The position numbers and the translations under genes are program-made. A model generated the notes under the pieces. The model saw only the letters and a list, made by a program, of their open reading frames with translations, was not told the DNA's origin and did not search any database. Shown here one piece after another: positions 3,238 to 23,789 of a DNA stretch of 64,000 nt (positions are counted from its first letter, which is position 1; every line of letters starts with the position of its first letter). This DNA comes from Nitrospira sp. KM1 (GTDB lineage: Bacteria; Nitrospirota; Nitrospiria; Nitrospirales; Nitrospiraceae): positions 3,968,001 to 4,032,000 of the forward strand of contig NZ_AP022671.1 of NCBI RefSeq assembly GCF_011405515.1. The letters run 5' to 3'.

Positions 3238-3408
3238 GTGGGAGTTCAAGATCAACTTAGCGTCGATGAGCGTGATATTCGCTGCATGTGCGGACAGTTA
3301 GTCGCACGATGGTCTCACAACGGTGTGGAAATCAAATGTAAACGTTGCCGACGTGTTGTCCATATCCCCTTCAAGCTGATCAGAGGGAAATCGCCAAACA
3401 TGTCCTGA
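3238..3408 (+). CDS. Com-like zinc-ribbon microprotein (56 aa)
   Basis: A GTG start at 3238 with a strong GGAGG site 6-10 bases upstream gives 56 residues. The core is IRCMCGQLVARW, then VEIKCKRCRRVVHIPF. Two CxC/CxxC-type cysteine pairs about 20 residues apart, and the wording around them, match the Com family (the small zinc-finger translational activator of phage Mu mom and its bacterial relatives). I infer a zinc-binding RNA- or DNA-binding regulator. It is 47 bp upstream of the AraC-type regulator and may be co-transcribed with it. It is too short for most gene callers and could be missed. Confidence 0.6.
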   Translation: MGVQDQLSVDERDIRCMCGQLVARWSHNGVEIKCKRCRRVVHIPFKLIRGKSPNMS

Positions 3409-3455
3409 GTAAATCAAATGGAAATTCGGACTGCTTCGAAAAGTCACCTAACTGT

Positions 3456-5239: not shown

Positions 5240-5253
5240 GAGGCCTGCCATCG

Positions 5254-5958: not shown

Positions 5959-7099
5959 TCTTCGAAGGCATCTCTCGCGCGTCTTGTTGACGGCTTTCGG
6001 CATTGCTACCGTTATTCTGGCGTTTAATCTCATCATCACGACCGTCCGAGCCTGGTATGGCGGCGTTGAAGCCTCTGCTCCCAATAGGTTGATCGTCCGC
6101 CATGCCGCGTCGCTCTCCATTCATCTTCCACTCGCCTATCGGGATCGTTTGGCATCAATGGAAGGAGTCACCGGTGTGGCATATGCCAATTGGTTCGGAG
6201 GTGTCTATCGGGAGGCCAGAGGATTCTTCCCCCAGTTCGCGATCGATCCGGTATCCTTCCTCGATCTCCATACGGAGATCTTGGTCACACCCGACGAGCA
6301 ACGGGCATTTTTGAGCGATCGGAGAGGTTGTCTCATCGGCAGTCGTCTGGCGGAACAATACGGATGGCACATCGGGGATGTCATTCCCCTCAAGGGGACC
6401 CTCTATCCTGGAGACTGGGAATTTATCGTCCGGGGAATATATCGAGGAAGCGAGCCCACCACCGATGAATCATGGATGTTGGTCCGTTGGGATTATATGA
6501 ACGAGCGGCGGCAGCAACAGGATCCGGATCGTGCCGGAACCGTAGGGTGGTACGTCATTCGCGTGGCGGATCCGGCGCGTGCCGGATCCATCGCAGGGGC
6601 GGTTGACGCCGCATTCGCCAACTCAATGGCCGAGACGAGGACGGAAACCGAGCAGGCCTTCCAGATGGGGTTTGTCGCGATGTCAGGAGCCATCATCAGC
6701 GCATTGAAGGTATTGGCGGTCGCGCTAAACGGCATCACGCTCCTGGTCCTGGCCAATACGCTTGTCATGACCGTACGAGAACGGACCAGAGAGCTGGCCG
6801 TGTTGCGAACGCTCGGGTTCCGTTCGTCTCATCTTGTGACCCTGGTCGTAGGGGAGGCGCTGTCCATCGCGGGGCTGGGATCAGTCCTTGGCATGGCGCT
6901 CACCATCCCGGCCAATCACCTCTATGCGAACTTTGTCGAAGCCAAACTGGGAAATTTGTTTCCACACCTGGACTGGCACCTCGGCGTCTTGATCTTGAGC
7001 GCTTCCGTCACATTGTTGGTTGCCGTGTGTGCCTCAACTATTCCCATCACCGCCGTGCTGCGGGCGAACGTGGCGCGAGATCTCCGCCATATCGGATAA
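5930..7099 (+). CDS. ABC transporter permease, FtsX/MacB-like
   Basis: 389 residues starting at ATG 5930 (GGAAGG site upstream), overlapping the ATPase end by 29 bases. The order is an N-terminal membrane helix (LLTAFGIATVILAFNLIIT), a large periplasmic MacB_PCD-like domain (about 45-260), then the FtsX domain with three helices and the coupling segment MTVRERTRELAVLRTLGF, which is diagnostic of this permease class. The overlap implies translational coupling with the ATPase. It pairs with the next gene to form a heterodimeric permease. Confidence 0.85.
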   Translation: MTLGTLIARNLRRHLSRVLLTAFGIATVILAFNLIITTVRAWYGGVEASAPNRLIVRHAASLSIHLPLAYRDRLASMEGVTGVAYANWFGGVYREARGFFPQFAIDPVSFLDLHTEILVTPDEQRAFLSDRRGCLIGSRLAEQYGWHIGDVIPLKGTLYPGDWEFIVRGIYRGSEPTTDESWMLVRWDYMNERRQQQDPDRAGTVGWYVIRVADPARAGSIAGAVDAAFANSMAETRTETEQAFQMGFVAMSGAIISALKVLAVALNGITLLVLANTLVMTVRERTRELAVLRTLGFRSSHLVTLVVGEALSIAGLGSVLGMALTIPANHLYANFVEAKLGNLFPHLDWHLGVLILSASVTLLVAVCASTIPITAVLRANVARDLRHIG

Positions 7100-7110
7100 G
7101 ACCCCGATCG

Positions 7111-8283
7111 ATGACTCTCTTATGGACATACAGCATCCGCAACGTGTGGGTTCGCAGCAGCACCACCGTCTTGGCCATCGCCGGATTGGCCCTGGTCAGT
7201 CTGGTCCTTCTGGCTGTCCTCATGATGGGAAATGGATTGGACCATGCGCTGATTGAAAGCGGTTCGGAGGACGATGTCCTGCTCATGCGAAAAGGCGCCA
7301 CGACGGAAATCGCGAGTGGGATCTACCGCGACCAGGCCCACATCGTGCGCACGCTTCCCGGCATCGCGAAGACTCCTGCTGGACAACCGCTTGCCATCCC
7401 CGAACTGGTCGTCCTGGTTAGTCTTGCCAAACACGGTGCGGATACTCCCGCGAACGTCACCGTCCGAGGAACCCAACCGGAAGCATTCACCCTACGCCCT
7501 CAAGTCAGGCTCACACAGGGGCGTCAATGGCAACCAGGGACGGTCGAGATCGTTGTCGGCGCCCACATTGCCACTCGATTCCTCCCGAACGGGATTGGGT
7601 CGCACCTACGAATCGGCAAACGGGAATGGCTCGTCGTCGGCATTCTCGACGCACAGGGTACCGCCTTCGATTCCGAAATTTGGGGGGATGTCGATCAATT
7701 GATGGCGGCCTATGGGCGTGACTCCTACTCTTCGCTCACGCTTCAACTGTCTGAACAAGCCGCGTTTCGGCAGATCGAGGAAGCTATAGCGGCCGACACG
7801 CGGCTGCTGCTGCAGGTGAAACGCGAACGCGATTACTATCGTGAAAAGTCGGTGACGATGGCCACGTTCATTCGCCTGATCGGCCTGACCGTCACCTTCG
7901 TCTTTTCGCTGGGGGCGATTTTGGGAGGTGCAATGACGATGTACGGCGCGGTCGCTTCCCGCATCGGAGAAATCGGCATGCTCCGCACCCTGGGATTTAC
8001 CCGCCGCACCATCCTCGCTGCGTTTCTTTTCGAATCCGTCCTTCTCGGCACCGTAGCCGGAGTGCTCGCCATCGGAAGCGGCACGGCATTGCAATTCATC
8101 ACGCTCTCCACCATGAACTGGAGTACGTTCTCCGAACTAGCCTTTCGGCTGACGTTGACGCCTGCCTCCGCCCTCCTCACCATGTGCTTTGCAATCGCCA
8201 TCAGCCTGCTGGGGGGACTGCCTCCGGCATGTCGGGCCGCCAAGATCACGATTACCTCCGCGCTGCGCGCTCAGGGCCGGTGA
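7111..8283 (+). CDS. Second ABC transporter permease, FtsX/MacB-like
   Basis: 390 residues. ATG at 7111 lies 11 bases after the previous stop. The layout matches its neighbour: first helix (VLAIAGLALVSLVLLAVLMM), periplasmic domain, then the FtsX block with the signature VASRIGEIGMLRTLGFTRRT followed by two more helices. Sequence similarity to the first permease is confined to these family features, so they are old paralogues rather than a recent duplication. Together with the ATPase this gives a 1:1 heterodimeric transporter. Confidence 0.85.
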   Translation: MTLLWTYSIRNVWVRSSTTVLAIAGLALVSLVLLAVLMMGNGLDHALIESGSEDDVLLMRKGATTEIASGIYRDQAHIVRTLPGIAKTPAGQPLAIPELVVLVSLAKHGADTPANVTVRGTQPEAFTLRPQVRLTQGRQWQPGTVEIVVGAHIATRFLPNGIGSHLRIGKREWLVVGILDAQGTAFDSEIWGDVDQLMAAYGRDSYSSLTLQLSEQAAFRQIEEAIAADTRLLLQVKRERDYYREKSVTMATFIRLIGLTVTFVFSLGAILGGAMTMYGAVASRIGEIGMLRTLGFTRRTILAAFLFESVLLGTVAGVLAIGSGTALQFITLSTMNWSTFSELAFRLTLTPASALLTMCFAIAISLLGGLPPACRAAKITITSALRAQGR

Positions 8284-8948: not shown

Positions 8949-10019
8949 GTGATCGTGAATATCGCGGGCGTACCATCACATCGTTTCCCTCTCAGAGCAT
9001 GGACCATTTCGTTCTGCATTCATGCTGTAGCCATGGTCTGCGCCATCGTGCTCCTCCGCGACTTACACGCGCATGTCAAACCTCCTCCGCTCCCCCTCGA
9101 CTTTCTCTTGGTCGAATCGGAGCCGTCTTCTCCCTCCACGTCGGGGCAGGCATCCGAAAACGAATCCCCTGACTCTGAACTGGCCGAACCGGAGTTTTCT
9201 TCTCAACTCGCACAGAACAATGCGGCTGAGCAGCCGCTAGACACTCTCATGCCGGCCGTCCAACCGCTCGACGCCAATCCGATAGCCGCGGACCCGCCAC
9301 AGGAGATCGCCCGGCCGATGACGAGATCCCGAACAGCTGAGATGCCTAAACCGGTGATGCCATCTCAGCCACGCACGGAACCAGATCGCGAAGGTATTTA
9401 CCCGACGGTCTCGACACCGATTGATACGCAGAGTCCGCCGCCTCCCTATCAAACCGTGCAAGAGCAGACCGTTACCGACACCACCGACGAGCTTACCGGC
9501 GATACGCCGGCGAATCCCTCGCCACCCACACTCGAAACTGCAAGCTCCGATCAGGCGGCGACAGAGCAACAGGCTTCTCCAATTCCTCCTCCGTCGACAC
9601 AATCCAGCGCCCATGCGTCCGATTCAAGCAGTCTTTCGCAAAACGAGGCAGCCGAATCCCTGAATGCACAGAGTGCTACCGCCGCCGGCAATCAACAGTC
9701 AGCTATGACACGAACCTCTTCGTCGCGATCGGACTATAGCTGGCTGACCGCTACGCTGCGACGGCGTGTCGAAAGTCTGAAAACCTATCCGCATCTAGCC
9801 CGCGTGCAGGGTTGGGGGGGGCGCGTGGTCGTCCGAGCCACGATCAAGGACGATGGCAGCTTGCTGGATGCACGGGTGGTCGAAAGTTCCGGATACGAAA
9901 TCCTCGATAACGAAGCGATCCAATTGATGCACCGAGCCTTCCCGATTCACCTGCAGCGCGACATCGGGAAGCCCCAAGTGGCGGTGATGGTGCCCATTCA
10001 GTATCGATCCGAACGCTGA
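8949..10019 (+). CDS. tonB: Energy transducer TonB
   Basis: 356 residues from a GTG start. A short cytoplasmic N-terminus precedes one membrane helix (TISFCIHAVAMVCAIVLL, about 19-36). Then follows a very long periplasmic linker (about 40-255) rich in Pro, Ser, Glu and Gln, and a C-terminal TonB domain containing YPHLARVQGWGGRVVVRATI and ARVVESSGYEILDNEAIQLM. TonB carries proton-motive energy from ExbB/ExbD to outer-membrane receptors. The linker is longer than usual (TonB is often 240-270 residues), which may suit a thick or crowded periplasm. No exbB/exbD gene is in the window. The dedicated receptor is probably the one at 14422-16866. Confidence 0.9.
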   Translation: MIVNIAGVPSHRFPLRAWTISFCIHAVAMVCAIVLLRDLHAHVKPPPLPLDFLLVESEPSSPSTSGQASENESPDSELAEPEFSSQLAQNNAAEQPLDTLMPAVQPLDANPIAADPPQEIARPMTRSRTAEMPKPVMPSQPRTEPDREGIYPTVSTPIDTQSPPPPYQTVQEQTVTDTTDELTGDTPANPSPPTLETASSDQAATEQQASPIPPPSTQSSAHASDSSSLSQNEAAESLNAQSATAAGNQQSAMTRTSSSRSDYSWLTATLRRRVESLKTYPHLARVQGWGGRVVVRATIKDDGSLLDARVVESSGYEILDNEAIQLMHRAFPIHLQRDIGKPQVAVMVPIQYRSER

Positions 10020-10036
10020 CGAAAGGAAGGTACCTC

Positions 10037-11719
10037 ATGATGCTTCTAGGCTTGCTGTTCACACCGCTGGTGTTCTTTGCCGGCTGGGTTCCAACTGCCG
10101 TTGCAGCGCCGGCAAAGGTCGGATTTATCGTGGTCGCGCCCGACCGCGGCTTTCTTGGAAATCAGGAAGTCCGATCGCTCGTGGAAGAATTCAAGCAATC
10201 ATATCCGGCTGCGCTCGGATTAGTCGGGCGAGAGTACACCGGAGTAGAGGGTGAATATGCCGTCTACCTGACCAGAGCGGTTCAGGAGCTGAAGCAGGCC
10301 GGCGCCACCGAGATCATAGCGATCCCTTTGTTTCTCTCCGAGGCCGATCCGCTCCTTAACCGTGTCAAGCCCTTGATGCCCGTCTATGCTGGTGGCCTTC
10401 CCATACGGTGGGCTCCGGCCATGGGGCAGGACTACCTCATCGGTCAGATTATCCTGGATCGAGTCGATGCCCTGAGCGAGCATCCCGAGTCGGAGCGGTT
10501 GATTCTCGTCGGAACCGGCGCGACAGATGACGCCAACGACAAAGCATTGAAAGCCGATTTGGACAAGCTCCTGGCATATGTCAAGCGCTATAAAAATTTT
10601 CGAGAGGCGGAAACGGTCGTGTATTACGACCGTGAAGCGCCGAACGCAGAACACAAAAACAAGGACATCAAAGATCATATGTTCGCCCAGATGGCCAAGC
10701 ACGGGCGGACCCTCCTTGTTCCTGCCTTTATCGGACCCAAATTCGATCATTCCATGTCGCTCACCACGTGGCTCGATGCCCAGTTCAAGAACACGCATGT
10801 CGTCTATAAGCCGGTTGAATTGCTGCCACATCCGAATGCGCTGTTGTGGCTGAAGAAAACTGCGAACAAGGAAACTCCGGCGGCGGCAAACAAGATCGGG
10901 GTCGTCATCATGCCGCACGGGTCCACGCAGCCATGGAATGACGCGGTCGAAGCAACGATCAAACCGCTCATGTCCAAATATCCCATCGAAATGGCGTATG
11001 GCATGGCCGACCCGCAGATTATTCAGGAAGCCGTCTCACGGCTGGAACAGCGCGGTATGACGCGCATCGTATTCGTCCGGATGTATGCCCTGGATCACCA
11101 CATGAAATCGCTCACGGACTACATTCTCGGCCTCAGCCACCATCCCCAGTCGGGCGGCCACGGCGGGCACGATCACCACGCCGCCCCTCCGCATCAAGTG
11201 AGAACCGCGGCGCTCTTCTCCACCTTCGGCGGATATGAGCAGAACCCGGACATCGCTCTCATCCTCCACAAACGAATCGCCGAGGTGAGCACAGACCCCG
11301 CTAAGGAAACCGTGTTGCTCGTGGCGCACGGCGAGGGCACCGACGAAGGTAACGACAAATGGCTCGCCGTGATGAATCAGAACATCGAACGCCTGCGACA
11401 GGATCCTCATTGCGCACAACTCAGGGCCGTCAAAGCATTGACCGTCCGTGAGGACTGGCCCAAACAACGGGAGAAAGCGGTCGCTGAAGTACGCGCAGTG
11501 ATCGAAGAAGCCGGCAAACAGGGGCGGGTCCTCGTCATTGCCAACCGGCTCTACGGATCCGGTCCCTATAAGAAGATGCTCAACGGGTTGACCTACGAAA
11601 TCAACGAGAAGGGACTAGTCGATCCCATCATGACCCGCTGGCTGGAGGACGGTCTGACACGCGTGACGGCTGAATTGACCCATTCCAAGAATGAACAATC
11701 CGCCTCTGCGCAGCCCTAG
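10037..11719 (+). CDS. Exported four-module CbiX-like chelatase protein
   Basis: 560 residues with a signal peptide (cleavage near AVA-AP, residue 24). Four CbiX-like modules can be traced: A (about 27-118), B (155-270), C (287-365) and D (424-535). C and D keep chelatase-type histidines (PHGS at 293-296, HH at 354-355, AHGEGTDEGND at 430-440). In A and B the same places read APDRG and VGTGATDDAND, with no histidine. A His-rich spacer (about 368-386, HHPQSGGHGGHDHH) separates C and D and should bind metal. CbiX enzymes insert cobalt into sirohydrochlorin in the cytoplasm; this protein should act in the periplasm, so its role is more likely metal or tetrapyrrole handling. The ribosome-binding site GGAAGG supports the start. 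It lies 17 bp after tonB. Confidence 0.8.
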   Translation: MMLLGLLFTPLVFFAGWVPTAVAAPAKVGFIVVAPDRGFLGNQEVRSLVEEFKQSYPAALGLVGREYTGVEGEYAVYLTRAVQELKQAGATEIIAIPLFLSEADPLLNRVKPLMPVYAGGLPIRWAPAMGQDYLIGQIILDRVDALSEHPESERLILVGTGATDDANDKALKADLDKLLAYVKRYKNFREAETVVYYDREAPNAEHKNKDIKDHMFAQMAKHGRTLLVPAFIGPKFDHSMSLTTWLDAQFKNTHVVYKPVELLPHPNALLWLKKTANKETPAAANKIGVVIMPHGSTQPWNDAVEATIKPLMSKYPIEMAYGMADPQIIQEAVSRLEQRGMTRIVFVRMYALDHHMKSLTDYILGLSHHPQSGGHGGHDHHAAPPHQVRTAALFSTFGGYEQNPDIALILHKRIAEVSTDPAKETVLLVAHGEGTDEGNDKWLAVMNQNIERLRQDPHCAQLRAVKALTVREDWPKQREKAVAEVRAVIEEAGKQGRVLVIANRLYGSGPYKKMLNGLTYEINEKGLVDPIMTRWLEDGLTRVTAELTHSKNEQSASAQP

Positions 11720-11786
11720 ACGTCATTACTCATGCCGTATCGAAGTTCGCAGGCATGACCGCTGTAAGCGAAGGAAGACACTTGTC

Positions 11787-12164
11787 ATGTTACCAGTAAG
11801 CGCAGTGCTGTTCGCGAAGGATCACCGTATTGTCGCCGAGTTCTACACTCGAGTCCTTGACGCGTCTGTAGCGAATCAAGATGCCTGCCACACACATCTG
11901 AACTGCGCGGGCTTCAGCGTGGTGATTCATCAGATACCCGCCGAGACGGCCACTTTGATGGCAATCGCCGCTCCTCCGCACCGGAGAGAGTCCGGTGCCA
12001 TACGTCTGAACTTCGCGGTTCGGAATATTGCAGAGCGTCGGAACGTCGCGAGGCAGCTCGGCGGACAGATCGATGAGCGTCCACCGTCGTGGGCTGGAGA
12101 GGATTCAACATTCTTCCTCGGTTATGACCCGGAAGGAAACGTCATTGGATGTAATGCCTGCTGA
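11787..12164 (+). CDS. VOC/glyoxalase-fold protein
   Basis: 125 residues starting MLPVSAVLFAKDHRIVAEFY, the first beta-alpha module of the vicinal-oxygen-chelate fold, and ending DSTFFLGYDPEGNVIGCN, the last strand pair with the typical DPEGN turn and a glutamate. Such proteins form dimers that hold a divalent metal; members include glyoxalase I, dioxygenases and antibiotic-binding proteins. Only part of the usual metal-ligand set is visible (H at HTHL, E in PEGN). The substrate cannot be assigned. An earlier in-frame start (11691) would overlap the chelatase gene; 11787 matches the domain boundary. Confidence 0.75.
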   Translation: MLPVSAVLFAKDHRIVAEFYTRVLDASVANQDACHTHLNCAGFSVVIHQIPAETATLMAIAAPPHRRESGAIRLNFAVRNIAERRNVARQLGGQIDERPPSWAGEDSTFFLGYDPEGNVIGCNAC

Positions 12165-12337
12165 CAGATGGCTCATAAGCCACCGTACACACGTGACTGA
12201 CCCTTCCTCGCTCAACTCTGCGGAATGAGCGGAGATATGTACGGATGTCGGCGAGGGCAAATGGGGGGCTGCCGGAATACGACTGGCCGTATTGGTCATC
12301 AATATTGTTCGAGGCACGCAAGGGATAAAAACAACAT

Positions 12338-12556
12338 ATGTCGGCACGCGTAGATAACACAGACGTCAAGGCGCGCCTCTTTGCGCTCTACGACGAGCTC
12401 ATTACACATGACGGGTACGCGGAGATGCGGGTGGAGATCCGTCTCCTCAAGCGCGGACAGAAGGAGATCATCATTCATTGTGGCAAACAGTATCGCTTCG
12501 TGGTCGACTGCCCTGGCGTTCCGGAGGCAGCAATAAATGAGGAAACGATGGTCTAG
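12338..12556 (+). CDS. Small hypothetical protein (72 aa)
   Basis: A 72-residue cytoplasmic protein with no signal peptide or membrane segment. It begins MSARVDNTDVKARLFALYDE, and the middle (MRVEIRLLKRGQKEIIIHCG, then KQYRFVVDC) predicts a mixed alpha/beta fold with several strands. I do not recognise the family. Codon use resembles neighbouring genes and the frame is the only plausible one here. The ribosome-binding site is weak. It stands alone between the VOC gene and the duplicated PEP-CTERM genes. Confidence 0.5.
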   Translation: MSARVDNTDVKARLFALYDELITHDGYAEMRVEIRLLKRGQKEIIIHCGKQYRFVVDCPGVPEAAINEETMV

Positions 12557-12581
12557 CAAGCCCGCATGTTCGTGACGTACA

Positions 12582-12852
12582 GGCAGGCGGTGCGGGACCG
12601 CTGCTTGATGCATTGAATAGATACCGGCTTTCTCCGGCCTCTTTGGGTGAGGCGGTGCGGGCTAACCCAGTGAAAGGGGTATTTGCAATGAATCGTATGA
12701 AGTCAACATTTACAGGCTGCATGCTCGGCCTGGGGCTCGTGCTGACCGCCGGCCAATCGGCGTATGCCGCGGCGGGCGTGTGGGACAATACCTTCACACC
12801 ATCGAGCTGGACGCGGCAAAGTACGCCCGGCAGTCTGTACGCCGAGTGGAAC
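12582..12852 (+). repeat. Direct repeat, copy 1 (271 bp; leader and start of PEP-CTERM gene)
   Basis: These 271 bp match 13545-13815 with only two differences (at 12637 and 12843), at a fixed offset of 963 bp. The repeat covers the whole 5' leader and the first 55 codons of the PEP-CTERM gene, then identity drops abruptly. The leader contains small stems such as CCGGctttctCCGG and GCCTCtttgggtGAGGC. Confidence 0.95.
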
Positions 12853-13407
12853 ACATTTGGTCCGCAGACACCTGCTCCTCTTCCGGCCCTCACCAATCCT
12901 GATGTCGCCAATTTCGGCGGCGGCTCCTACAGCCTGCTGGAAACAACCGGTGCCGGGAGCATCTTCAGCAGCGGCAACATCAGCAGGAGTGGGGCTTCCG
13001 GCCCCGGGACGGCGTTCGAATGGACCGTCGGCAATGTGGCCGGTGGACCGCGTGACGTCTATATGCGCATCGGATCGCTGGGCGCCTTCGACACCACGCT
13101 CAATCAAAGTTTTACCAACTTCACACTGAATGGCGTAACCGGCACCTATCAGGAGCTGTTCAACGGACCCGCCACGGGCGGCGCGGGTAGCAGGGAAGTG
13201 GAAGCGCTTATTTCCTGGCTGAACGTCCCGGACGCCTCCTCGTTTCTGTTGACGTGGAATGCCATCGGCGTCAATGCGAGCTTGGACCAACTCTCTCTCG
13301 ACGTGGGTCCATTGGCTCCAGTGCCATTGCCCGCAGCAGTCTACTTGATGGCATCGGGACTTATGGGGATCGCAGCGATGGCTCGGCGTCAACAGCGAGC
13401 CGTCTGA
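12688..13407 (+). CDS. VPLPA-CTERM sorted exported protein, copy 1
   Basis: 239 residues from ATG 12688. Signal peptide (cleavage near AYA-AA), a beta-rich mature domain starting GVWDNTFTPSSWTRQSTPGS, and a C-terminal sorting signal VPLPAAVYLMASGLMGIAAM followed by ARRQQR. This is the VPLPA type of exosortase substrate, to be cleaved and fixed to the outer surface or exopolysaccharide. The first 55 codons and the leader are almost identical to the next gene, while the rest is clearly related but diverged. It lies directly upstream of the TonB-dependent receptor in the same direction. Function unknown; a surface protein that helps capture the receptor's substrate is possible. Confidence 0.85.
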   Translation: MNRMKSTFTGCMLGLGLVLTAGQSAYAAAGVWDNTFTPSSWTRQSTPGSLYAEWNTFGPQTPAPLPALTNPDVANFGGGSYSLLETTGAGSIFSSGNISRSGASGPGTAFEWTVGNVAGGPRDVYMRIGSLGAFDTTLNQSFTNFTLNGVTGTYQELFNGPATGGAGSREVEALISWLNVPDASSFLLTWNAIGVNASLDQLSLDVGPLAPVPLPAAVYLMASGLMGIAAMARRQQRAV

Positions 13408-13544
13408 AGTTCCAGGGACGAGCCTGCATCGGCGGCCTCCTCGCCACGAGGGACCATGCCGGAGTGCATATCTATCGGCTGCCCCGGCGTCCGGGGGGCA
13501 ATAGAGAAAGGAGGAACAGAAGGACTTGTTCACGAGAAACACAT

Positions 13545-13815
13545 GGCAGGCGGTGCGGGACCGCTGCTTGATGCATTGAATAGATACCGGCTTTCTCCGA
13601 CCTCTTTGGGTGAGGCGGTGCGGGCTAACCCAGTGAAAGGGGTATTTGCAATGAATCGTATGAAGTCAACATTTACAGGCTGCATGCTCGGCCTGGGGCT
13701 CGTGCTGACCGCCGGCCAATCGGCGTATGCCGCGGCGGGCGTGTGGGACAATACCTTCACACCATCGAGCTGGACGCGGCAAAGTACGCCCGGCAGTCTG
13801 TACGCTGAGTGGAAC
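13545..13815 (+). repeat. Direct repeat, copy 2 (271 bp)
   Basis: Second copy of the 12582-12852 repeat, 963 bp downstream, with two base differences. Unlike copy 1 it is preceded by a GAAAGGAGG-like sequence at 13505-13513, about 130 bp upstream of the start codon. Confidence 0.95.
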
Positions 13816-14373
13816 TCGTTCAGCAACGACGCGGGGACCGCGGCTAACATTGTCGCTACCAATCCTGACGTCGCCAACTTCGGCGGCGGCACCTACAACC
13901 TGTCGGAAAATGGTTCAGGTGGCACCGCGTTCATCGTCGGCGGCACGGCGGGCAATATCTACAGCTTTGCCGCGCCGACGGCGTTCGATTTCACCGTCGG
14001 TAATGTGGCCGGTGGACCGCGTGACGTCTATATGCGCATTGGATCGGTGGGCAACTTCGACACCACGCTCAATCGCAGTTTCACCAACTTCACACTGAAC
14101 GGCGTAGCCGGCACCTATCAGGAGCTGTTCAACCAGGCAGCCGGTGGTGCCATGGGTGGAAACGAGGTGGAGGCCGTGGTGTCCTGGCTGAACGTGGCTC
14201 CAGCATCATCGTTCCTGCTGAACTGGAACGCCATCGGTTCCAGTGTGAGCCTGGACCAGCTGTCCCTTGATGTGGGTCCGACTCCCGTGCCATTGCCCGC
14301 AGCAATCTACCTGATGGGTTCAGGACTGGTGGGAATAGCAGCGATGGCCCGGCGCAGGCTGCAAGGCGCCTAA
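13651..14373 (+). CDS. VPLPA-CTERM sorted exported protein, copy 2
   Basis: 240 residues from ATG 13651, a tandem paralogue of the gene before it. The signal peptide and first 30 mature residues are identical; the middle differs (for example an extra Gly-rich insert, FIVGGTAGNIYSF), and shared blocks return around VGNVAGGPRDVYMRIGS and FTNFTLNGV. It ends VPLPAAIYLMGSGLVGIAAM plus ARRR, the VPLPA sorting signal. The pattern of identical 5' end and diverged centre suggests duplication followed by gene conversion of the start region. Same inferred fate as copy 1: exported and surface-attached. Confidence 0.85.
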   Translation: MNRMKSTFTGCMLGLGLVLTAGQSAYAAAGVWDNTFTPSSWTRQSTPGSLYAEWNSFSNDAGTAANIVATNPDVANFGGGTYNLSENGSGGTAFIVGGTAGNIYSFAAPTAFDFTVGNVAGGPRDVYMRIGSVGNFDTTLNRSFTNFTLNGVAGTYQELFNQAAGGAMGGNEVEAVVSWLNVAPASSFLLNWNAIGSSVSLDQLSLDVGPTPVPLPAAIYLMGSGLVGIAAMARRRLQGA

Positions 14374-14396
14374 GATTCAAAGCGCAGTCCGCATTG

Positions 14397-14425
14397 GCAT
14401 GGCCCCCTGAAAAGGGCGGCCATGC
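14397..14425 (+). promoter_or_regulatory. Stable hairpin at the start of the TonB-dependent receptor gene
   Basis: GCATGGCC-CCCT pairs with AGGG-c-GGCCATGC around a GAAA loop, giving 12 bp with one bulge. It encloses the AAGGG ribosome-binding site and the first possible ATG (14422). No T-run follows, so it is not a standard terminator. It may limit translation of the receptor or act as an mRNA processing or stability element between the PEP-CTERM and receptor genes. Confidence 0.5.
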
Positions 14426-16866
14426 GCATGCGTGTATGCGGAATGAGCTACAAATCATGGGGACGTGCGATGGTATTCATCGCACTGCTGCCCGTATGGC
14501 TGATTCATGAAGGAGCGGGCTGGACGGCGGACCTACGTCCGCTGCCCTCGCCGCAACTTTCGGCTTCACAGAGGCAAGGCATGAACATCGCGGCAAACAG
14601 CAGTAGGGCAGACGTTCTGGGAGGATCCGTGACCGGAGAGCAGAATATTGGAGAGCGGCAACCACGCACCGTGGAGGCTCCCGGAACAGGCACGAGGAAT
14701 CAACCCAGCGATGCACCGGACATGGATCCAGGGGACACGCTGGTGATGGCAGATGTCGAAGTGACGGGAAGATATGAGGGCTTCGAGGTCGATCCAACGC
14801 GGTCGCGCACCACGGTGACGGCTAAGGAGCTGGAGCGCCGGCAAGCGGACAACGTCTTCACTGTGTTGCAGGACGTTCCCGGTGTCGCCGTCGATGGCGG
14901 GCCGCTCGCCAGCGGCATGAAATTCAACATCCGCGGCTTCAGCGACAATGAAGACGTGCTGATGAAGATCGACGGGGCCATGCGCAATTTCGAGAAGTAC
15001 CGCTTCGGCAGCGGCGTGTTCGTCGAGCCTGAATTGTTGAAAGCCGTCGAGGTGACGCGCGGGCCGGCGGGTGCGCTGCAAGGCTCCGGCGCCATCGGCG
15101 GCGTGGTGGAGATGCGGACCAAGGACGCCGCCGACTTCCTGCGGCCCGGAGAGCGCGTAGGCGCGCGCCTCAAGTCAGGGTGGTCCACCAACAATGAGGA
15201 ACTCATGGGATCGGCGAGCGCCTATGGTGTGGCGTTCGACTCGATCGACCTGCTCGCCAGCGGCACGTGGCGTGACTCCGGCGACATCACGACAGCGAGT
15301 GGCACGAAGTTGCAGAACACCAGAGCCAACCGCCTGAGCGGATTGGGCAAGGTCTCGTACCGCCCGCGGCCCGGCGCCGGCATCACCTTCGGGCATACGT
15401 ATTTCCAGGAAGACGTCTTGCAGCCCTTCGACGCCACGATCGGTGTACCGGGCGTGTTCGGCTTCGTGCGGCGCGACATGACAGACAGCACCTCTACCAG
15501 TAATTTCGAATACGCGCCGACTTCGCAATCCCTCACGCCTTGGATCGCTCTGAAAGGGGCGTTCGGCTACACCGACACCAGCGTCACCGATTCCGACCGG
15601 CAGAGTGCGAACGGCGTGCTCGTCCCGAACGCCCCCACGAATTTCTTCGACTACAAGATCGCGACGTTCGATCTGACGAACACCACCGCGCTGCGCTTCG
15701 GCCCCGTGCGCAATGCGCTCACGTACGGCGTCCAGTACAACCACAATGACCGCACGTCCACGATCAATCAGTTCAATCCCAGGACAGCCGCGTGGAGTAC
15801 GGTGGACAACCTCAGTCAGCCGTCAGGTACCAAATCCTTTTTTGCGTACATGCTCGAGGATCGTATCAACATCGGCCATGTGAGTCTCACCGGCAGCCTC
15901 CGTCACGACACCTACAAGGTCGAAGTCACCGCGCAAGAGACACGCGATGCATTGCAGGCCGAAGGCAGAAGCCCAATCATCGAGTTCTCGAAAACCATGC
16001 CCAGCGCCGGCATCGCCTGGAACGTGATGGGCGGTCCGGTAACCCTCTTCTACAACTACGCCAAAGCATTCCGGCCGCCGCTCGTCGATGAATACTTCAC
16101 GCAGGGCGCGTTCAGCCGCTGCTCCCTTTTGTTCTTCGGCGCGCTCACCCCCCCATCCGGCGTCTGCGGCAATCTCTACGTGCCGGAGTCCTCGACCAAC
16201 CATGAGATCGGCGTGTCGTTGAACTACCCCGGACTGTTCAAGGGCATCGATATGTTCACGGCCAAGCTGGTGTTGTACCGCAACGACGTGACACACACCC
16301 TCGAGTCGCTTTCGGCGCGCACGGCAAGCGGAGCGCTCTGCCGGCCGCTCCGCCCGCCCACGGGGAACAACGACCTATGCACGAACGTGACGCAAGACGG
16401 CAAGGAGCATCGGGAAGGCGTGGAGTTCGAGGTGGGGCTCCGGACTGAACACTGGTTCAGCAACCTGAACATCTCCGCCATACGCGGCAAGCAGGTGTGC
16501 GACGGCGAGCGTCCTTTGTTCGACATTCCCGGCAATTCGCTGGTGTTCTCATTGGGCCATAACGTTCTCAACAATCGGCTCGAGTACGGGTATCGCTTTC
16601 GAGCCGTGGACCACCGCCTGGTGATCACCGGCACTGCCGAGCAAGTCGTCACACCCTGCAACACCGGCCTCGGCGTCGGCACGCAGGCGGGGTACGTCTT
16701 GCACAACCTGTTCGCGTCATACCAGCCGATTCCCATGCTCAGCTTCAATCTGGCCGTCGACAATTTGACCAACACCAAATACTTCCTCAACAACGGCTTT
16801 GGCGGCGGTATCGGCCAAGAAGGAATGGGGTACAACGTGCGATTTTTCATGTCGATGTCGTTCTAA
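14422..16866 (+). CDS. TonB-dependent outer-membrane receptor, heme-receptor type
   Basis: 814 residues. Signal peptide (hydrophobic run about 17-28), an unusual 70-residue polar stretch, a TonB box near DTLVMADVEVTG (105-116), a plug domain (about 120-260, with FNIRGFSDNEDVLMKIDGA), and a 22-strand barrel ending in phenylalanine (FFMSMSF). The plug wording NFEKYRFGSGVFVEPELLK, the FRPP motif near 549 and the NLYVPESS motif near 585 resemble the FRAP/NPNL loop region of heme/hemoglobin receptors, without the standard spelling. So a tetrapyrrole or metal chelate is the best guess for the ligand. Later in-frame starts at 14443 and 14470 are possible. TonB and two exported CbiX proteins in the locus support the same substrate class. 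Confidence 0.85.
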   Translation: MRMRVCGMSYKSWGRAMVFIALLPVWLIHEGAGWTADLRPLPSPQLSASQRQGMNIAANSSRADVLGGSVTGEQNIGERQPRTVEAPGTGTRNQPSDAPDMDPGDTLVMADVEVTGRYEGFEVDPTRSRTTVTAKELERRQADNVFTVLQDVPGVAVDGGPLASGMKFNIRGFSDNEDVLMKIDGAMRNFEKYRFGSGVFVEPELLKAVEVTRGPAGALQGSGAIGGVVEMRTKDAADFLRPGERVGARLKSGWSTNNEELMGSASAYGVAFDSIDLLASGTWRDSGDITTASGTKLQNTRANRLSGLGKVSYRPRPGAGITFGHTYFQEDVLQPFDATIGVPGVFGFVRRDMTDSTSTSNFEYAPTSQSLTPWIALKGAFGYTDTSVTDSDRQSANGVLVPNAPTNFFDYKIATFDLTNTTALRFGPVRNALTYGVQYNHNDRTSTINQFNPRTAAWSTVDNLSQPSGTKSFFAYMLEDRINIGHVSLTGSLRHDTYKVEVTAQETRDALQAEGRSPIIEFSKTMPSAGIAWNVMGGPVTLFYNYAKAFRPPLVDEYFTQGAFSRCSLLFFGALTPPSGVCGNLYVPESSTNHEIGVSLNYPGLFKGIDMFTAKLVLYRNDVTHTLESLSARTASGALCRPLRPPTGNNDLCTNVTQDGKEHREGVEFEVGLRTEHWFSNLNISAIRGKQVCDGERPLFDIPGNSLVFSLGHNVLNNRLEYGYRFRAVDHRLVITGTAEQVVTPCNTGLGVGTQAGYVLHNLFASYQPIPMLSFNLAVDNLTNTKYFLNNGFGGGIGQEGMGYNVRFFMSMSF

Positions 16867-16870
16867 TTGT

Positions 16871-18199
16871 ATGTGGCAACAGACAGCCAATCATCTCTCA
16901 GTGGCATGCATGCTCGTCCTGTTCGGCATAACGAGCAGCGAGGCGAACACGTCCAGGATGCCCTTGGCTGGAGACGAAAATAGATCGGCGATCATCGCCT
17001 CTCCCGAGATCGGGACGTGGAATATCGGTCATTGCGCGTACGAAGCCATCGGGAAGCCCCATATCAACCTCTCGCGTCCTGAATGTCCTGACCGAATCAG
17101 GCGCGTCATGGCGGCCTTGCCCGCTGCCCCTTTCGAGGCCACCCTGTCGCCAGATTCGTTGCATTTCAGTCCGTCGCAGTGGCACGACGATGGCGCCGAT
17201 CTGGAAAGCCGGCCTCAAGTGGTCCCGATTCCTTCTCCTCCAGCGTCGGGGCCCCTCTTCATGACCGCGTTGGTTGGGATGTTGGTAACCCCTCTGCTGA
17301 AAGATTCACGTCGCAAGCAATCCTGTGATCCGAACGGGTGCCAAGCGCATCGGCCAGGGTCCGCACGTTTGGTGGTTTTGCTGTCAGCCGACGCGACTTT
17401 TGCCGAAACGCTTGAAAAGCATTTGCATCGTGCGGGCTATGCCATCCGAACAGTAAGCACCACGAGTGAGATATTCGCCATCATGGACCCGGCGTCGCTC
17501 GTATTGATCCTGGTGGATCACCGTATTCACGATTGGGATATGCTTCGGACAGATCCCTCGCTTCGGCATGTACTGCTGATGGGAGTGGTCCCGTTCGGCT
17601 CTCTCTATACCGAGAACCACTGTGTGGCGGACCTGGAACGTGGCTTGGACGGGATCCACGACTTGCGGGACGGACATCGTCTTTTGGTTACCAAAGTCCG
17701 TGCGTATCTTCGGCGTGACGGGTGCGGGCACGTACGTCGAGGGATTTACCAGGTGGGGGCGATCGAACTGGATGACGATGCTCATGAGGTGACAATTGCC
17801 GGACGACAGGTAAAGCTCTCCACCAAACCCTTCACAATCCTTCGACTCCTCATGAGCAAACCTTCCGAGGTATGCAGCCGAAGCGAACTGGTCCATTTTA
17901 TCTGGGGACCCAATTTTGCGATCGGTGAACATGCCTTGGACGTTCACGTCTACGCCCTTCGACAGCAGCTTGATCGCGCGCCCAACTCTCTATGCAAACT
18001 CATTACCATCAAGGGTGTCGGCTTCAAACTGAAGCCCCTCTCCTCAACCGGAACGATTCAAACAAGAACGCGCTCATCCAAAATCCAACTCGATCTCCGG
18101 ATTGCACAGAAGCTCAAGGACGATGCGGAGGTCTGCATCGGCTCAGATCCGCAGCTCAAGTCGCCGGCGCACCTGTGCAGTACGCCGGCATGCGGATGA
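16871..18199 (+). CDS. Membrane-tethered OmpR-type regulator with periplasmic N-terminus
   Basis: 442 residues. An N-terminal hydrophobic segment (about 8-20) is followed by a polar, Pro-rich region of about 100 residues, a second hydrophobic helix (about 126-144, ending with a KDSRRK stop), a degenerate receiver-like domain (165-282, possible phosphoacceptor Asp216 but no acidic pair at the first strand), and a C-terminal winged helix (293-390: RQVKLSTKPFTILRLLMSKP, then LDVHVYALRQQLD and GVGFKLKP). A sensor with the DNA-binding domain at the C-terminal, cytoplasmic side of a second helix is the reverse of ToxR/CadC. It lies 4 bp after the receptor gene and 37 bp before the second CbiX gene, so it probably senses the envelope and regulates this locus. 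Confidence 0.7.
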   Translation: MWQQTANHLSVACMLVLFGITSSEANTSRMPLAGDENRSAIIASPEIGTWNIGHCAYEAIGKPHINLSRPECPDRIRRVMAALPAAPFEATLSPDSLHFSPSQWHDDGADLESRPQVVPIPSPPASGPLFMTALVGMLVTPLLKDSRRKQSCDPNGCQAHRPGSARLVVLLSADATFAETLEKHLHRAGYAIRTVSTTSEIFAIMDPASLVLILVDHRIHDWDMLRTDPSLRHVLLMGVVPFGSLYTENHCVADLERGLDGIHDLRDGHRLLVTKVRAYLRRDGCGHVRRGIYQVGAIELDDDAHEVTIAGRQVKLSTKPFTILRLLMSKPSEVCSRSELVHFIWGPNFAIGEHALDVHVYALRQQLDRAPNSLCKLITIKGVGFKLKPLSSTGTIQTRTRSSKIQLDLRIAQKLKDDAEVCIGSDPQLKSPAHLCSTPACG

Positions 18200-18236
18200 C
18201 GATTTATGCGCTCATCATTCATACAGGAGGTGGCAT

Positions 18237-19175
18237 ATGGCAGTTGCGATGATTGTTTTATTATCCGCGCTTTTTACGGCCGTCATTCCGTATCCAGCTC
18301 ATGCGACCAACGATTCCTTGCCTCCTACCGATACGGGAAAGATCGGGATCCTTCTCGTCAATCACGGATCTCGATCCGCCACGTGGCGTCAATCGCTTTT
18401 GGACCTCGAAACCCAGGTCGCCGGGCCGATACTTGCTCATTCGACCGTCAAGAGCATCAGGACGGCGTTCATGGAGTACACGGAACCCTCGATCGCCACG
18501 CGCATGAAGGAATTTGACCGAGAAGGATTTACGGACGTCATCATCGTGCCGGTGTTTCTGACGGTCAGCCCCCACACGTTCGACGACATCCCGACGATCG
18601 TGGGGTTGAAAGAAGATCCGCACTCCATGCAGCAGCTGAAGATCGAGAAGATCGAGCGTTACACGCCGAACGCGAAACCCCACATCACCCCGCCACTCGA
18701 TTTCACCGATATTCTTCAGAAGAATCTGCTCAGGCGAGTGAGCGCACTTTCGCGGGATCCGGCTCATGAGGGTCTGGTGCTCATCGGTTACGGCGACGAA
18801 ACGTACGACAAGGAGTGGGTCGAGCTGTTCGACAAAGTCGCGGGGTTCGTCAGAATGCAGACAGGGATCGCAGGGTATTCCTATGGTTGGTGCGGCCACA
18901 TCGCGAACTACAAGCCGGAGGAAACGACCGCCGCGATCAATACGGTACTCAAGAGCGCGCGGACGGCCCTCGTCATCCCCGTGTTGGTCGCCCACGATGA
19001 GATGTTCCAAATCAAAATCATCGGCGACGGCATCGCCAAAGTGCCCGACAACAAGCAGCGCGTCATTTATAAGCCGGATTCCATCCTGCCGGACGTGAAC
19101 GTCGAGCGATGGGTCATCAGCGTCACCGAAGAATACGTCAACAAGATTCAGATCAAAGTCTCACAAGCACACTGA
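18237..19175 (+). CDS. Exported CbiX-like chelatase protein (312 aa)
   Basis: ATG at 18237 with a strong AGGAGG site 5 bases upstream; longer in-frame starts lack one. A signal peptide (cleavage near AHA-TN) leads to two CbiX-like halves. The first keeps both chelatase histidines: NHGSRSATW (strand 1) and VFLTVSPHTFDD. The second (VLIGYGDETYDKEWVELFDK, then VIPVLVAHDEMF) keeps only one. Canonical short CbiX is about 120-140 residues per half and cytoplasmic; this one should be periplasmic. Its stop overlaps the next ATG (TGATG), so it is translationally coupled to the PepSY-like membrane protein. Paralogue of the 560-residue protein upstream; both probably act on the receptor's ligand. Confidence 0.85.
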   Translation: MAVAMIVLLSALFTAVIPYPAHATNDSLPPTDTGKIGILLVNHGSRSATWRQSLLDLETQVAGPILAHSTVKSIRTAFMEYTEPSIATRMKEFDREGFTDVIIVPVFLTVSPHTFDDIPTIVGLKEDPHSMQQLKIEKIERYTPNAKPHITPPLDFTDILQKNLLRRVSALSRDPAHEGLVLIGYGDETYDKEWVELFDKVAGFVRMQTGIAGYSYGWCGHIANYKPEETTAAINTVLKSARTALVIPVLVAHDEMFQIKIIGDGIAKVPDNKQRVIYKPDSILPDVNVERWVISVTEEYVNKIQIKVSQAH

Positions 19176-19771
19176 TGTGGGCTCGGGTGAGACACCGGCT
19201 TCGGTGGCCGGAACGCGAGACACTCGCGCGGCTCAACCTGGCTGTCCATCGAGACATCGGGTACGCCTGCGCCTCCCTGATTCTCGCCTATTGCCTGTCC
19301 GGCATCGCGCTCAACCATATCGGTGATTGGAATCCCGACTTCGTCATTTCAAGACAGACCGTGTCGCTCCCTCACGCGTACGACAGAAAAGAGATTACGA
19401 AAGAACGGATCGCGCAGTTTGGACGACTGGTGCAGGAGGAGAGCTATAAAATATATGATTTCCCGACATCCGATCAGGTGAAGATTTACTATGACAACGC
19501 CTCCCTGCACCTCAATTTTTCCACTGGCCACGGTACCTACGAAAAAGTTTCAAGGAGGCCCCTTCTATACCAGGCGAATGCGTTGCACCTCAATCGCCTG
19601 CAAGGATGGAAGTGGGCTTCCGATGTCTTCGCGCTCATCCTCATTCTCCTCAGTCTGACCGGACTGTTCGTTCTACGGGGTAGATATGGACTTGCTCGGC
19701 GGGGGAAATGGCTGATTCTCGTCGGCCTACTTCCCCCTGTACTCGCCCTGCTCATCTTCGAACTGAAATAG
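19175..19771 (+). CDS. PepSY-type transmembrane protein
   Basis: 198 residues. One N-terminal membrane helix (YACASLILAYCLSGIALNHI) preceded by LNLAVHRDIGY, a central extracytoplasmic region (about 50-135), then two C-terminal helices (FALILILLSLTGLFVLRG and LILVGLLPPVLALLIF). The His-Arg-Asp start, the LHLNRLQGWKWASDVFA block and the helix wording are those of PepSY-associated membrane proteins, which often accompany TonB-dependent siderophore or heme receptors and include ferric reductases. I infer an inner-membrane step after periplasmic chelatase action, perhaps reduction. It is the last gene of the locus and is followed by stable hairpins. Confidence 0.75.
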   Translation: MWARVRHRLRWPERETLARLNLAVHRDIGYACASLILAYCLSGIALNHIGDWNPDFVISRQTVSLPHAYDRKEITKERIAQFGRLVQEESYKIYDFPTSDQVKIYYDNASLHLNFSTGHGTYEKVSRRPLLYQANALHLNRLQGWKWASDVFALILILLSLTGLFVLRGRYGLARRGKWLILVGLLPPVLALLIFELK

Positions 19772-20240: not shown

Positions 20241-20317
20241 TGGTGCCCCCGACACGAATTGAACGTGCGACCCGCGGTTTAGGAAACCGCTGCTCTATCC
20301 AACTGAGCTACGGGGGC
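20241..20317 (-). tRNA. tRNA-Arg (anticodon CCT)
   Basis: A 77-nt cloverleaf on the minus strand: acceptor GCCCCCG/CGGGGGC, D-arm with AGCTCAGTTGGATAGAGC, anticodon stem GCGGT/ACCGC around loop TTCCTAA (anticodon CCT), T-arm with GTTCAATTC, and an encoded CCA. It decodes AGG. Its 5' half (20276-20317) belongs to the 44-bp repeat that also occurs at 35670-35713, so it was rebuilt by integration of the element: the 3' half is chromosomal and the upstream side is now the integrase gene. Confidence 0.95.
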
Positions 20318-20319
20318 AT
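20276..20319 (+). repeat. Attachment site, left copy (44 bp, inside tRNA-Arg)
   Basis: Identical over 44 bp to 35670-35713. It spans the tRNA from two bases upstream of its 5' end into the anticodon loop and stem. Flanking bases differ on both sides, so the identity block has exact edges. Confidence 0.95.
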
Positions 20320-21427
20320 GGCTGGAATTTAGCGTACTTACGCGAGGCGTGTCTACCTGAGATGAGGGGACTGTGCCCAAATTGTGCCCGTGAAGCTTTT
20401 TCGCAGCTTCGCGAAGGTCTCCGTCATTCACAATGTTATAGCGATCGAAGACCGAGCGCGTCTTGTGCCCGGTGATTTTCATCGCCACGGTTTCCGGTAC
20501 TCCACTGCGGACAAGGTTCCTCACCGCGCTACGTCTGAAATCGTGCCGGATCATGCCTATCAAGCCGACCTTTGCACAGGCGGTCGTCCAGGCCTTTCGA
20601 AAGTCTCGAAGCCGGTTCCCTTGCCAGCGTCCTTGACGAGGGTTTGGAAAGAGGGGAATGATGACACGATCGAGCTTACGAGACAGAGCCTTGACCCGCT
20701 CAACCTGCTCGGCAAGTACTCCCGCGACGGCCGGGGTGAGATACACAACTCTTCCTTCACCGTTCTTCGTCATGCCCGGATCTAGCCGCAGGGTGCCGGC
20801 GTTGAGGTCCACATGCCCGAGGTCCAGCTGCAGCACTTCGCTTTGCATCCGCCAGCCATAGGTATAGGCAATCGTCACTGCCGCCTGAAGATCGGGCCGC
20901 TTCTTCAATGCTCTGCAGACTCGCTCAAAATCCGCCCGCTCAAAGAATCCCGAACGGGGAGCGGATTCTTGCAAGAGGTGAATGCGTGGCATTCTCAACA
21001 GTTGCCCGCGTTCATGCGCGAGTCGAAGCGCTTTCCCAAGCACACTGAGTTCTCGGTTAATTGTGGCGTTTGAAACCTCTTCCGTCTGACGCTGATGAAC
21101 ATATCGCGTGATGTTCGCTTGATCGACGGCTTGTAGGCGATACTGCCCAAAGAAGGCTTTGACAGGTTTCATTTTGCTGGCTGCATCCTTGAGCTGCCGT
21201 GAGCCCGTCACTTGATAGTGTTCGGTGAGGGCATCGGCGGCCTCACGAAATAGAATTCTCTCATTTCGGGGCAGGGCAGGGGCACCCATGACAGCCCGCC
21301 CTTCTCGGTCCTTCAAGAACCGTTCGGCTGCCTTGAGCATATCGGTCCTGGTACTCTCTCGCACCGGTCGGCCGTTTACATAGTATTTGATCCAAAACAC
21401 GTTACCTCGCTTATAAATCATTCCCAT
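20279..21427 (-). CDS. int: Tyrosine recombinase (integrase) of the element
   Basis: 382 residues. A short N-terminal arm-binding region (YKRGNVFWIKYYVNGRPVRE) and a core-binding domain (about 65-165) precede the catalytic domain. Visible catalytic residues: Arg in TYGWRMQSEV, HDFRR, His in ITGHKT and Tyr in FDRYNIVND. The last 13 residues (HAPVAQLDRAAVS) are encoded by the tRNA 5' half and the stop codon lies in the tRNA anticodon loop. RNase P cutting at the tRNA 5' end would remove that stop from the mRNA in the integrated state. It overlaps att, as expected for the enzyme that uses this site. The XRE gene ends 2 bp upstream of its ATG. Confidence 0.95.
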   Translation of the reverse strand: MGMIYKRGNVFWIKYYVNGRPVRESTRTDMLKAAERFLKDREGRAVMGAPALPRNERILFREAADALTEHYQVTGSRQLKDAASKMKPVKAFFGQYRLQAVDQANITRYVHQRQTEEVSNATINRELSVLGKALRLAHERGQLLRMPRIHLLQESAPRSGFFERADFERVCRALKKRPDLQAAVTIAYTYGWRMQSEVLQLDLGHVDLNAGTLRLDPGMTKNGEGRVVYLTPAVAGVLAEQVERVKALSRKLDRVIIPLFPNPRQGRWQGNRLRDFRKAWTTACAKVGLIGMIRHDFRRSAVRNLVRSGVPETVAMKITGHKTRSVFDRYNIVNDGDLREAAKKLHGHNLGTVPSSQVDTPRVSTLNSSHAPVAQLDRAAVS

Positions 21428-22334: not shown

Positions 22335-23789
22335 TCAGCCTGGAAAGTCCTGCCAGCAGTCCTCGTGCGACGTGGATGGTACGGGCGCAACCGCGACTGG
22401 GTCCGGGGTCGGCATGCGTGATACGTCAACGGATGAATGCACTGCGGAAGAGATAGGAGAGCCGAGTGCACGAGGAGGCGTCTTAAACGGCGGCTTCATC
22501 ACGGCCTGTCTCGGCTCTGCCACATTCAACAGTCTGGCTTCGTGTTGCCGATACATTGAGGCCGTCGAACTATCCATGGCCTGCACGTAAATACTCGTGG
22601 TTTTAAAGTTGGTGTGCCCGAGCCCCTTCTTCGAGACGGTCACGAGATCCTTTGAGGTGTCAACCGCCCAGGTCGAGCCGGTCCGACGCAGGTCATGACG
22701 GGTGATACGATCCACGCCAGCCCGTTTTCGGATGTCATGCCAGAGCTGCGTCCACCGCGAGACGCTGAGCGGCTTATTTCCACGGCCGGGGAAGAGAAAA
22801 GTGGAGGGCTTCGGTCTCGATCGGATGTAGGTGACGAGGAGACTTGCCAGGACGGGTGGCAGGTCGATCGGGTCAATCTTCTGCGTCTTGCTATCGACCT
22901 TGTGCCACATGCCGACCGTTTCTCCGTGCTCATCGGTCCAGAATTGCAGATGGCTCACCAACAGCTCCGCCGCTTCTCCTGGTCTCGGGAACAACGTCAG
23001 CATGAACATGAAGAAGCACCGTTCCCGAAGTGGCTGACGTTTGAGGATGTCCAGCAAGGTCGGCATTTCATGCTCACGAACAAATTCCTTCCGCTTGCCC
23101 GCCGTCCCAATGGGCACCTTCATCGCTCGGTTCTTCCCGTCGTAGCATTCCAGTTGCTCGGCCCAGTTATAGAGATGACGGAGTTTCTTCACCAGGAAGA
23201 TCGCCATGCTGGGAATGTTCGCACGAATCGGATTGATCCATTCGGTAATCTGCGCCACGGTCAAGGATTCCAGCGTGTACGGCTTCAGCGGGCCAAAATG
23301 TTTTTCCATATTCGTCATGATCCCGCGTCCACCGCCCTTGAGCGTGGAGATATGCAACCGATAGTACTGCTCCAATAATTCCCCAATGGTCATGCCAGGC
23401 CGGAGGGATGTCGAGGGTGCGGGGAGGGGGGCAACGGTGACGCGGGTCAGCGCGGTCGCGGTCCCCTCACGGTAGGCCGGGTTCAGACCATGATATCGCC
23501 CCCATTCCAGACACTTGTTGTAGAGCAAATGTAAGTGTTTGAGACAGGCACAGGCTTGTGACGAGGAATGCGCATTGATCTGATCGAACCACTGCTTGAT
23601 GAGTGGCCGCGTGAGGGTGTCGAGCGTATAGGGGTGTAAGGGCGGAAAGTACATGGCGATCCGGCTGCGCGTCGAGTGTGGATACTTCAACGTGGCGAGG
23701 TGTCGCCGGTCGAACTCGAGCAGAAGCTCGCCGATCGTCTGAGGACTAGGGGGCGTTCCAGTGGGAAACACGGTGAAGTTGGGAGCCAT
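22335..23789 (-). CDS. Second tyrosine recombinase with duplicated core-binding domain
   Basis: 484 residues. The catalytic domain is complete (FPRPGEAAELLVSHL with Arg, RHDLRRTGSTW, GLGHTN, and Tyr in TSIYVQ). The N-terminal part is odd: two consecutive core-binding modules, about 16-105 and 132-225, share the wording TIGELL, H(L/I)(A/S)TLK, PLxPYTL(D/E)(S/T)LT and a following LYN helix. Most integrases have one. The C-terminus adds 60 residues rich in Pro, Ser and Val. It may recognise two different DNA arms, resolve multimers of the replicating element or control cargo. It lies apart from att, so the other enzyme is the likely integrase. Confidence 0.9.
   Translation of the reverse strand: MAPNFTVFPTGTPPSPQTIGELLLEFDRRHLATLKYPHSTRSRIAMYFPPLHPYTLDTLTRPLIKQWFDQINAHSSSQACACLKHLHLLYNKCLEWGRYHGLNPAYREGTATALTRVTVAPLPAPSTSLRPGMTIGELLEQYYRLHISTLKGGGRGIMTNMEKHFGPLKPYTLESLTVAQITEWINPIRANIPSMAIFLVKKLRHLYNWAEQLECYDGKNRAMKVPIGTAGKRKEFVREHEMPTLLDILKRQPLRERCFFMFMLTLFPRPGEAAELLVSHLQFWTDEHGETVGMWHKVDSKTQKIDPIDLPPVLASLLVTYIRSRPKPSTFLFPGRGNKPLSVSRWTQLWHDIRKRAGVDRITRHDLRRTGSTWAVDTSKDLVTVSKKGLGHTNFKTTSIYVQAMDSSTASMYRQHEARLLNVAEPRQAVMKPPFKTPPRALGSPISSAVHSSVDVSRMPTPDPVAVAPVPSTSHEDCWQDFPG

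Follow-up and report, generated by a model that had tools for sequence, protein, structure and literature searches.

Exported class II chelatases tied to TonB-dependent uptake are already known. In P. gingivalis, the exported class II chelatase-like protein IhtB/FetB (PDB 9b86) is encoded with the TonB receptor IhtA and is thought to strip iron from heme (PMC10913741, PMC13402209); a role in metal insertion or exchange has also been proposed for FetB (PMC13402209). The structure of the periplasmic CbiK of D. vulgaris, likewise an exported class II chelatase, has been solved (PDB 2xvx, 2xvz). In gut Bacteroides, the hmu operons encode HmuS, a CobN-like envelope protein of about 1,450 residues, as well as HmuY and a heme receptor of the TonB type. 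HmuS is the demonstrated de-chelatase of these operons; it strips the iron from heme and requires a reductant (PMC12583661). A locus of Nitrospira sp. KM1 also codes for chelatase-type proteins with putative leaders beside a TonB-dependent receptor. These proteins, P2 (560 aa) and P7 (312 aa), are CbiX-type class II chelatases and belong to another family than HmuS, and neither has a CobN-family match in Pfam or NCBIfam.

The window, i.e. the whole stretch of 64,000 nucleotides that was analysed (G000:C1:3968001-4032000), is part of a 4.5 Mb genome on one contig, and all protein-coding parts of the locus lie on its forward strand. The locus begins with an AraC-type regulator (3345-4001; Pfam HTH_18, 79 bits) and a MacB-type exporter (3998-8283). 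The latter consists of an HlyD-type membrane fusion protein (3998-5239; HlyD_D23, 74 bits) in a position conserved among relatives, an ABC ATPase (5254-5958; ABC_tran, 121 bits) and two FtsX/MacB_PCD permeases with approximate starts (5930-7099 and 7108-8283). TonB follows (8949-10019; Pfam TonB_C 54 bits, cut-off 24.6), its end separated by 17 bases from the gene of P2 (10037-11719; CbiX 30.4 bits, cut-off 22). Downstream of P2 are a glyoxalase-like ORF of uncertain start (11691-12164; Glyoxalase_6, 29 bits), present in the window only and unconserved among related loci, and a small conserved protein (12338-12556; cluster c14, 9 loci). The small protein sits between P2 and PEP-CTERM genes in several Nitrospira loci, and its relative in locus L053 gave no Pfam match. 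Two paralogous PEP-CTERM (VPLPA-CTERM) proteins (12688-13407 and 13651-14373; TIGR03370 27.7 and 26.3 bits, cut-off 25.35) precede the heme-receptor-like TonB-dependent receptor (14422-16866; Pfam barrel 133 bits, plug 81 bits). The receptor end is overlapped by a protein with a winged-helix (OmpR-type) DNA-binding domain (16799-18199, start uncertain; Trans_reg_C, 60.8 bits), whose cluster c12 is present in 10 loci. P7 (18237-19175; CbiX 52.7 bits, cut-off 22) has its preferred start at 18237, with a GGAGG ribosome site upstream. A PepSY_TM_like_2 inner-membrane protein (19175-19771, likely start 19175; 56.8 bits) closes the series; its start and the P7 stop share a TGATG overlap, which suggests translational coupling of the two genes. 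No E. coli-type Fur box occurs within the window with up to three mismatches allowed.

The original prediction had named two different CbiX proteins with signal peptides in one locus, accompanied by TonB, a heme-type receptor, a PepSY protein, PEP-CTERM proteins and a MacAB-like exporter. Each of these parts was recovered by family scans and translations of the window, the exporter lying to the left of the interval 8949-19771 to which the prediction referred. The winged-helix protein at the receptor end, the upstream AraC regulator and the downstream tRNA-Arg and integrases had been overlooked.

P2 consists of an N-terminal leader and four alpha/beta chelatase-like domains. The single-sequence PDB search gave no match, and FetB was not among the sequence matches of the PDB profile search. 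The predicted structure (pLDDT 87.6, pTM 0.85) has the fold of a bilobal class II chelatase. In the fold search it resembles SirB (Z 20.9), coproporphyrin ferrochelatase (Z 18.7), the D. vulgaris periplasmic CbiK (Z 16.9) and FetB (9b86; Z 16.3, rmsd 4.0, 226 aligned residues, 9% identity); profile and fold matches alike are class II chelatases, periplasmic binding-protein folds ranking lower in the fold search. P2 thus shares with FetB the 9b86-like fold, a leader and a nearby TonB receptor gene. FetB, in contrast, is a single bilobal lipoprotein that works with an ABC importer, whereas the four-domain P2 is encoded with a second CbiX protein, a PepSY protein and an exporter. The D. vulgaris CbiK is likewise a single bilobal subunit, unlike the P2 chain with its two bilobal units, and its subunits form a heme-binding tetramer. 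In the alignment of 27 P2 sequences, H294 (HGS/HGA, domain 3) and H431 (HG, domain 4) are invariant (27/27) and the linker is His-rich. Domain 3 keeps its second His in only part of the sequences, and the catalytic His of domains 1 and 2 is gone; P2 may therefore bind rather than catalyse, catalysis residing in P7. In L032 (8363-9331), the second half of P2 has a stand-alone relative (34% identical) with a lipoprotein-like leader, HG in both lobes and a His-rich linker; the locus also carries a cluster of RND-type efflux genes (c37).

P7 is two-lobed and retains the two His motifs of CbiX/CfbA, NHGSR and PHTFDDIP, without variation in nine of nine aligned copies. Its closest likeness is the nickel/cobalt chelatase CfbA. 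The P7 structure model is poor (pLDDT 56) and its fold matches were set aside. P7 is related to the N-terminal half of P2, the two aligning at 98.5% probability (E 2.3e-15), and P2 therefore resembles a tandem of two units, each the size of P7. Like the sirohydrochlorin chelatases CbiX, CfbA and SirB, P2 and P7 score above the CbiX cut-off of Pfam, and P7 has both His motifs; unlike them, the two proteins appear to be exported, are TonB-linked, and score far under the NCBIfam cut-off of 120 bits for nickelo/cobaltochelatases (NF033198/NF002090; P7 67.6 and 74 bits, P2 about 30 bits).

Ahead of the first strand, nearly all relatives of P2 and P7 carry a hydrophobic N-terminal stretch and, behind it, an Ala-rich end. 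This heuristic leader call (not SignalP) supports the export of P2 and P7 by Sec-type leaders. A separate CbiX without leader is encoded elsewhere in the same genome (L033 7577-8104). The premise that CbiX proteins normally work in the cytoplasm, from which the original prediction started, passes over D. vulgaris CbiK and P. gingivalis IhtB/FetB, class II chelatases that are known to be exported.

The best NCBIfam model of the window receptor is the heme/hemoglobin receptor TIGR01785 (305.4 bits), just under its cut-off of 316.85. The nearest solved structures are the heme/hemoglobin receptors PhuR, ShuA and HasR (E 1e-20 to 5e-24), compared with E 4e-8 for BtuB. The loop between the FRPP (FRAP-like) and NPNL-like boxes holds no His and two Cys, so that the classical His heme motif is absent from the window receptor sequence. 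Receptors paired with P2 elsewhere are only 24-28% identical to it (BLAST). Those adjoining P2 in L055, L058 and L048 exceed the curated heme/hemoglobin cut-offs. HmuY is encoded near P2 in Gammaproteobacteria and Manganitrophaceae (58-71 bits, cut-off 27), and five gammaproteobacterial loci (L060, L061, L063, L064 and L068) have the order receptor-HmuY-P2. Bacteroides hmu operons are laid out in the same way, with HmuS in the slot that P2 takes in these loci. The Pfam HmuY search of the KM1 genome gave no match, and the control genomes gave none either.

P2 relatives were detected in 25 of the 396 Nitrospirota genomes searched and in 30 contigs of the named collection, mostly Nitrospira; carriers in this collection are Nitrospira, other Nitrospirales, Manganitrophaceae and Gammaproteobacteria, including Tenderia. 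P7 is found in eight other Nitrospira-type genomes among 296 searched, all eight of which possess P2. The usual order in Nitrospira is HlyD, ATPase, permease 1, permease 2, TonB, P2, receptor, P7 and PepSY; the opposite strand often carries ferritin-like genes (Ferritin 113.6 bits in L025). A same-strand TonB receptor lies within 8 kb of P2 in 29 of 40 loci, though many contigs are short, while 6.9% of positions in the KM1 genome are within 8 kb of a TonB receptor; a binomial figure on this proximity assumes independence, and the 40 loci are not independent. The linkage of CbiX and TonB receptor is not due to chance, because the gene order repeats across many genomes. An unusual array of 22 TonB-dependent receptor genes occupies about 135 kb just left of the window (G000:C1:3818603-3953913). 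This array was considered as the source of the receptor-chelatase pairing and rejected, since the pairing recurs in other genomes and lineages. Multicopper oxidase and cupredoxin-like genes adjoin P2 relatives (L061 8039-9637 and L045 6831-7334), and another P2 locus holds FecI/FecR genes. In a plasmid record of Manganitrophus (L067 10004-11210), the P2 relative is split over three ORFs and is either broken or affected by a sequencing error. One genome of the same class (G186; C75, C55) has three P2 copies, one of them with an internal stop.

The KM1 genome possesses a second P2 copy (L025 8160-9887), 61% identical to that of the window. Its neighbours are the conserved block c16-c19-c18-c22 and a ferritin gene, no receptor is nearby, and directly upstream of this copy is an AraC gene (L025 9906-10484) related to the AraC regulator of the window. 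In several relatives (L079-L082) the full locus adjoins this same block, whereas the window locus adjoins tRNA-Arg(cct) (20241-20317), which is overlapped by a tyrosine integrase (20279-21427). This difference in surroundings suggests that the window locus is a second or relocated copy. A further integrase is located at 22335-23789, and the tRNA-Arg/integrase region forms the edge of an integrative element beside the locus.

On balance, we read the locus as probably encoding an envelope module for the de-chelation of heme or another metallo-porphyrin. Heme would be imported through the TonB receptor, energised by the dedicated TonB of the locus. The PepSY protein, likely a heme-bearing membrane reductase, would supply electrons in the periplasm. 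P7 with its intact motif and P2 with its two tandem bilobal units would bind the heme and release Fe(II), the chelatase step being the ferrochelatase reaction run backwards. Protoporphyrin might be discharged by the MacB-type exporter, and the iron might be stored by ferritin-type proteins like those encoded next to relatives. Proteins of the PepSY_TM type carry heme and reduce metal chelates in the periplasm (PMC13038864). Three His of the PepSY protein are invariant in 17 relatives; a PepSY neighbour makes sense given the reductant need of HmuS. In E. coli, protoporphyrin IX is exported by MacAB-TolC (PMC4263509). In favour of the model, the KM1 genome has no PF01126 heme oxygenase. Against it speak the lack of an apparent full-length FeoB, FeoB_N matches reaching at most 49 bits, the His-free loop of the receptor, the incomplete set of catalytic His in P2, the missing Fur box and the copper-protein genes beside P2 in some relatives.

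The original prediction proposed an envelope pathway that inserts, removes or exchanges a metal in a tetrapyrrole or chelate during uptake. The recurrence of the locus, the fold and the leaders give good support to an exported chelatase coupled to TonB uptake; the computation also shows the CbiX family, the repeated association with genes for the receptor, TonB, PepSY and the exporter, and the HmuY linkage in relatives. Metal, tetrapyrrole and direction had been left open there. HmuY and the heme receptors of relatives now point to heme or another porphyrin, and analogy with HmuS points to iron removal. What we infer is heme as the ligand, iron removal as the direction, the electron supply and the export of porphyrin. 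CbiX family membership and domain organisation are compatible with metal insertion and with removal and cannot tell the two apart; the direction proposed here would follow from the likeness to HmuS.

Insertion is the normal reaction of class II chelatases, and the exported proteins might instead load a scavenged porphyrin or other tetrapyrrole with Mn, Co, Zn or Ni in the envelope. The resemblance of P7 to a nickel/cobalt chelatase fits such loading, as do the PDB titles that describe the D. vulgaris periplasmic CbiK as a cobaltochelatase, and a review has P. gingivalis FetB making Mn-protoporphyrin, with iron removal left open (PMC13402209). HmuY and the heme-receptor partners, however, indicate heme intake, and a PepSY reductase with an exporter fits iron removal more readily; we regard metal insertion or exchange as unlikely. 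We give a little less credit still to the reading of P2 and P7 as periplasmic chaperones that have lost chelatase activity and shuttle intact heme or siderophore complexes. The loss of the first-domain His of P2, the incomplete second His of its domain 3 and the several periplasmic binding-protein folds lower in the fold search would agree with it, but not the full CbiX motif kept in every aligned P7 copy, nor the two invariant His of P2.

Uptake of a copper or ferric chelate appears improbable; in this reading the receptor would import the chelate, and the metal would be reduced by PepSY and taken from a non-tetrapyrrole ligand by the CbiX proteins. Copper operons of B. pertussis do pair a TonB receptor with PepSY (PMC12914433), and in some loci P2 is flanked by genes for cupredoxin-like proteins and multicopper oxidases; FecI/FecR genes accompany it in another locus. 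The same B. pertussis paper, however, names no CbiX or chelatase (PMC12914433), the copper-receptor model TIGR01778 gives the window receptor 16 bits versus 305 for heme, and HmuY recurs in P2 loci.

Beyond heme de-chelation as such, a more specific claim is put forward tentatively, at somewhat less than even confidence: that these loci encode a complete module for heme de-chelation outside the cytoplasm, in which class II chelatases of the CbiX type are a non-homologous replacement of HmuS in HmuY/HmuR-type loci, and that this module has a PepSY reductase and a MacB-type protoporphyrin exporter of its own and occurs in nitrite oxidisers, Manganitrophaceae and Gammaproteobacteria outside a host setting. 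A limited literature search yielded no description of the four-domain P2 family, of its pairing with P7 or of its placement in HmuY loci, and no publication linking CbiX with PepSY and TonB was found. If heme de-chelation by these proteins holds true, the ability to take iron out of heme in the envelope would have evolved on two or more occasions from unrelated chelatase scaffolds, and envelope de-chelation would not be limited to host-associated Bacteroidota. Proteins now annotated as sirohydrochlorin cobaltochelatases would gain a testable function, and a MacB-type pump and a PepSY protein would be tied to porphyrin handling. For KM1, the module would explain a possible use of heme iron by an organism without a recognisable heme oxygenase.
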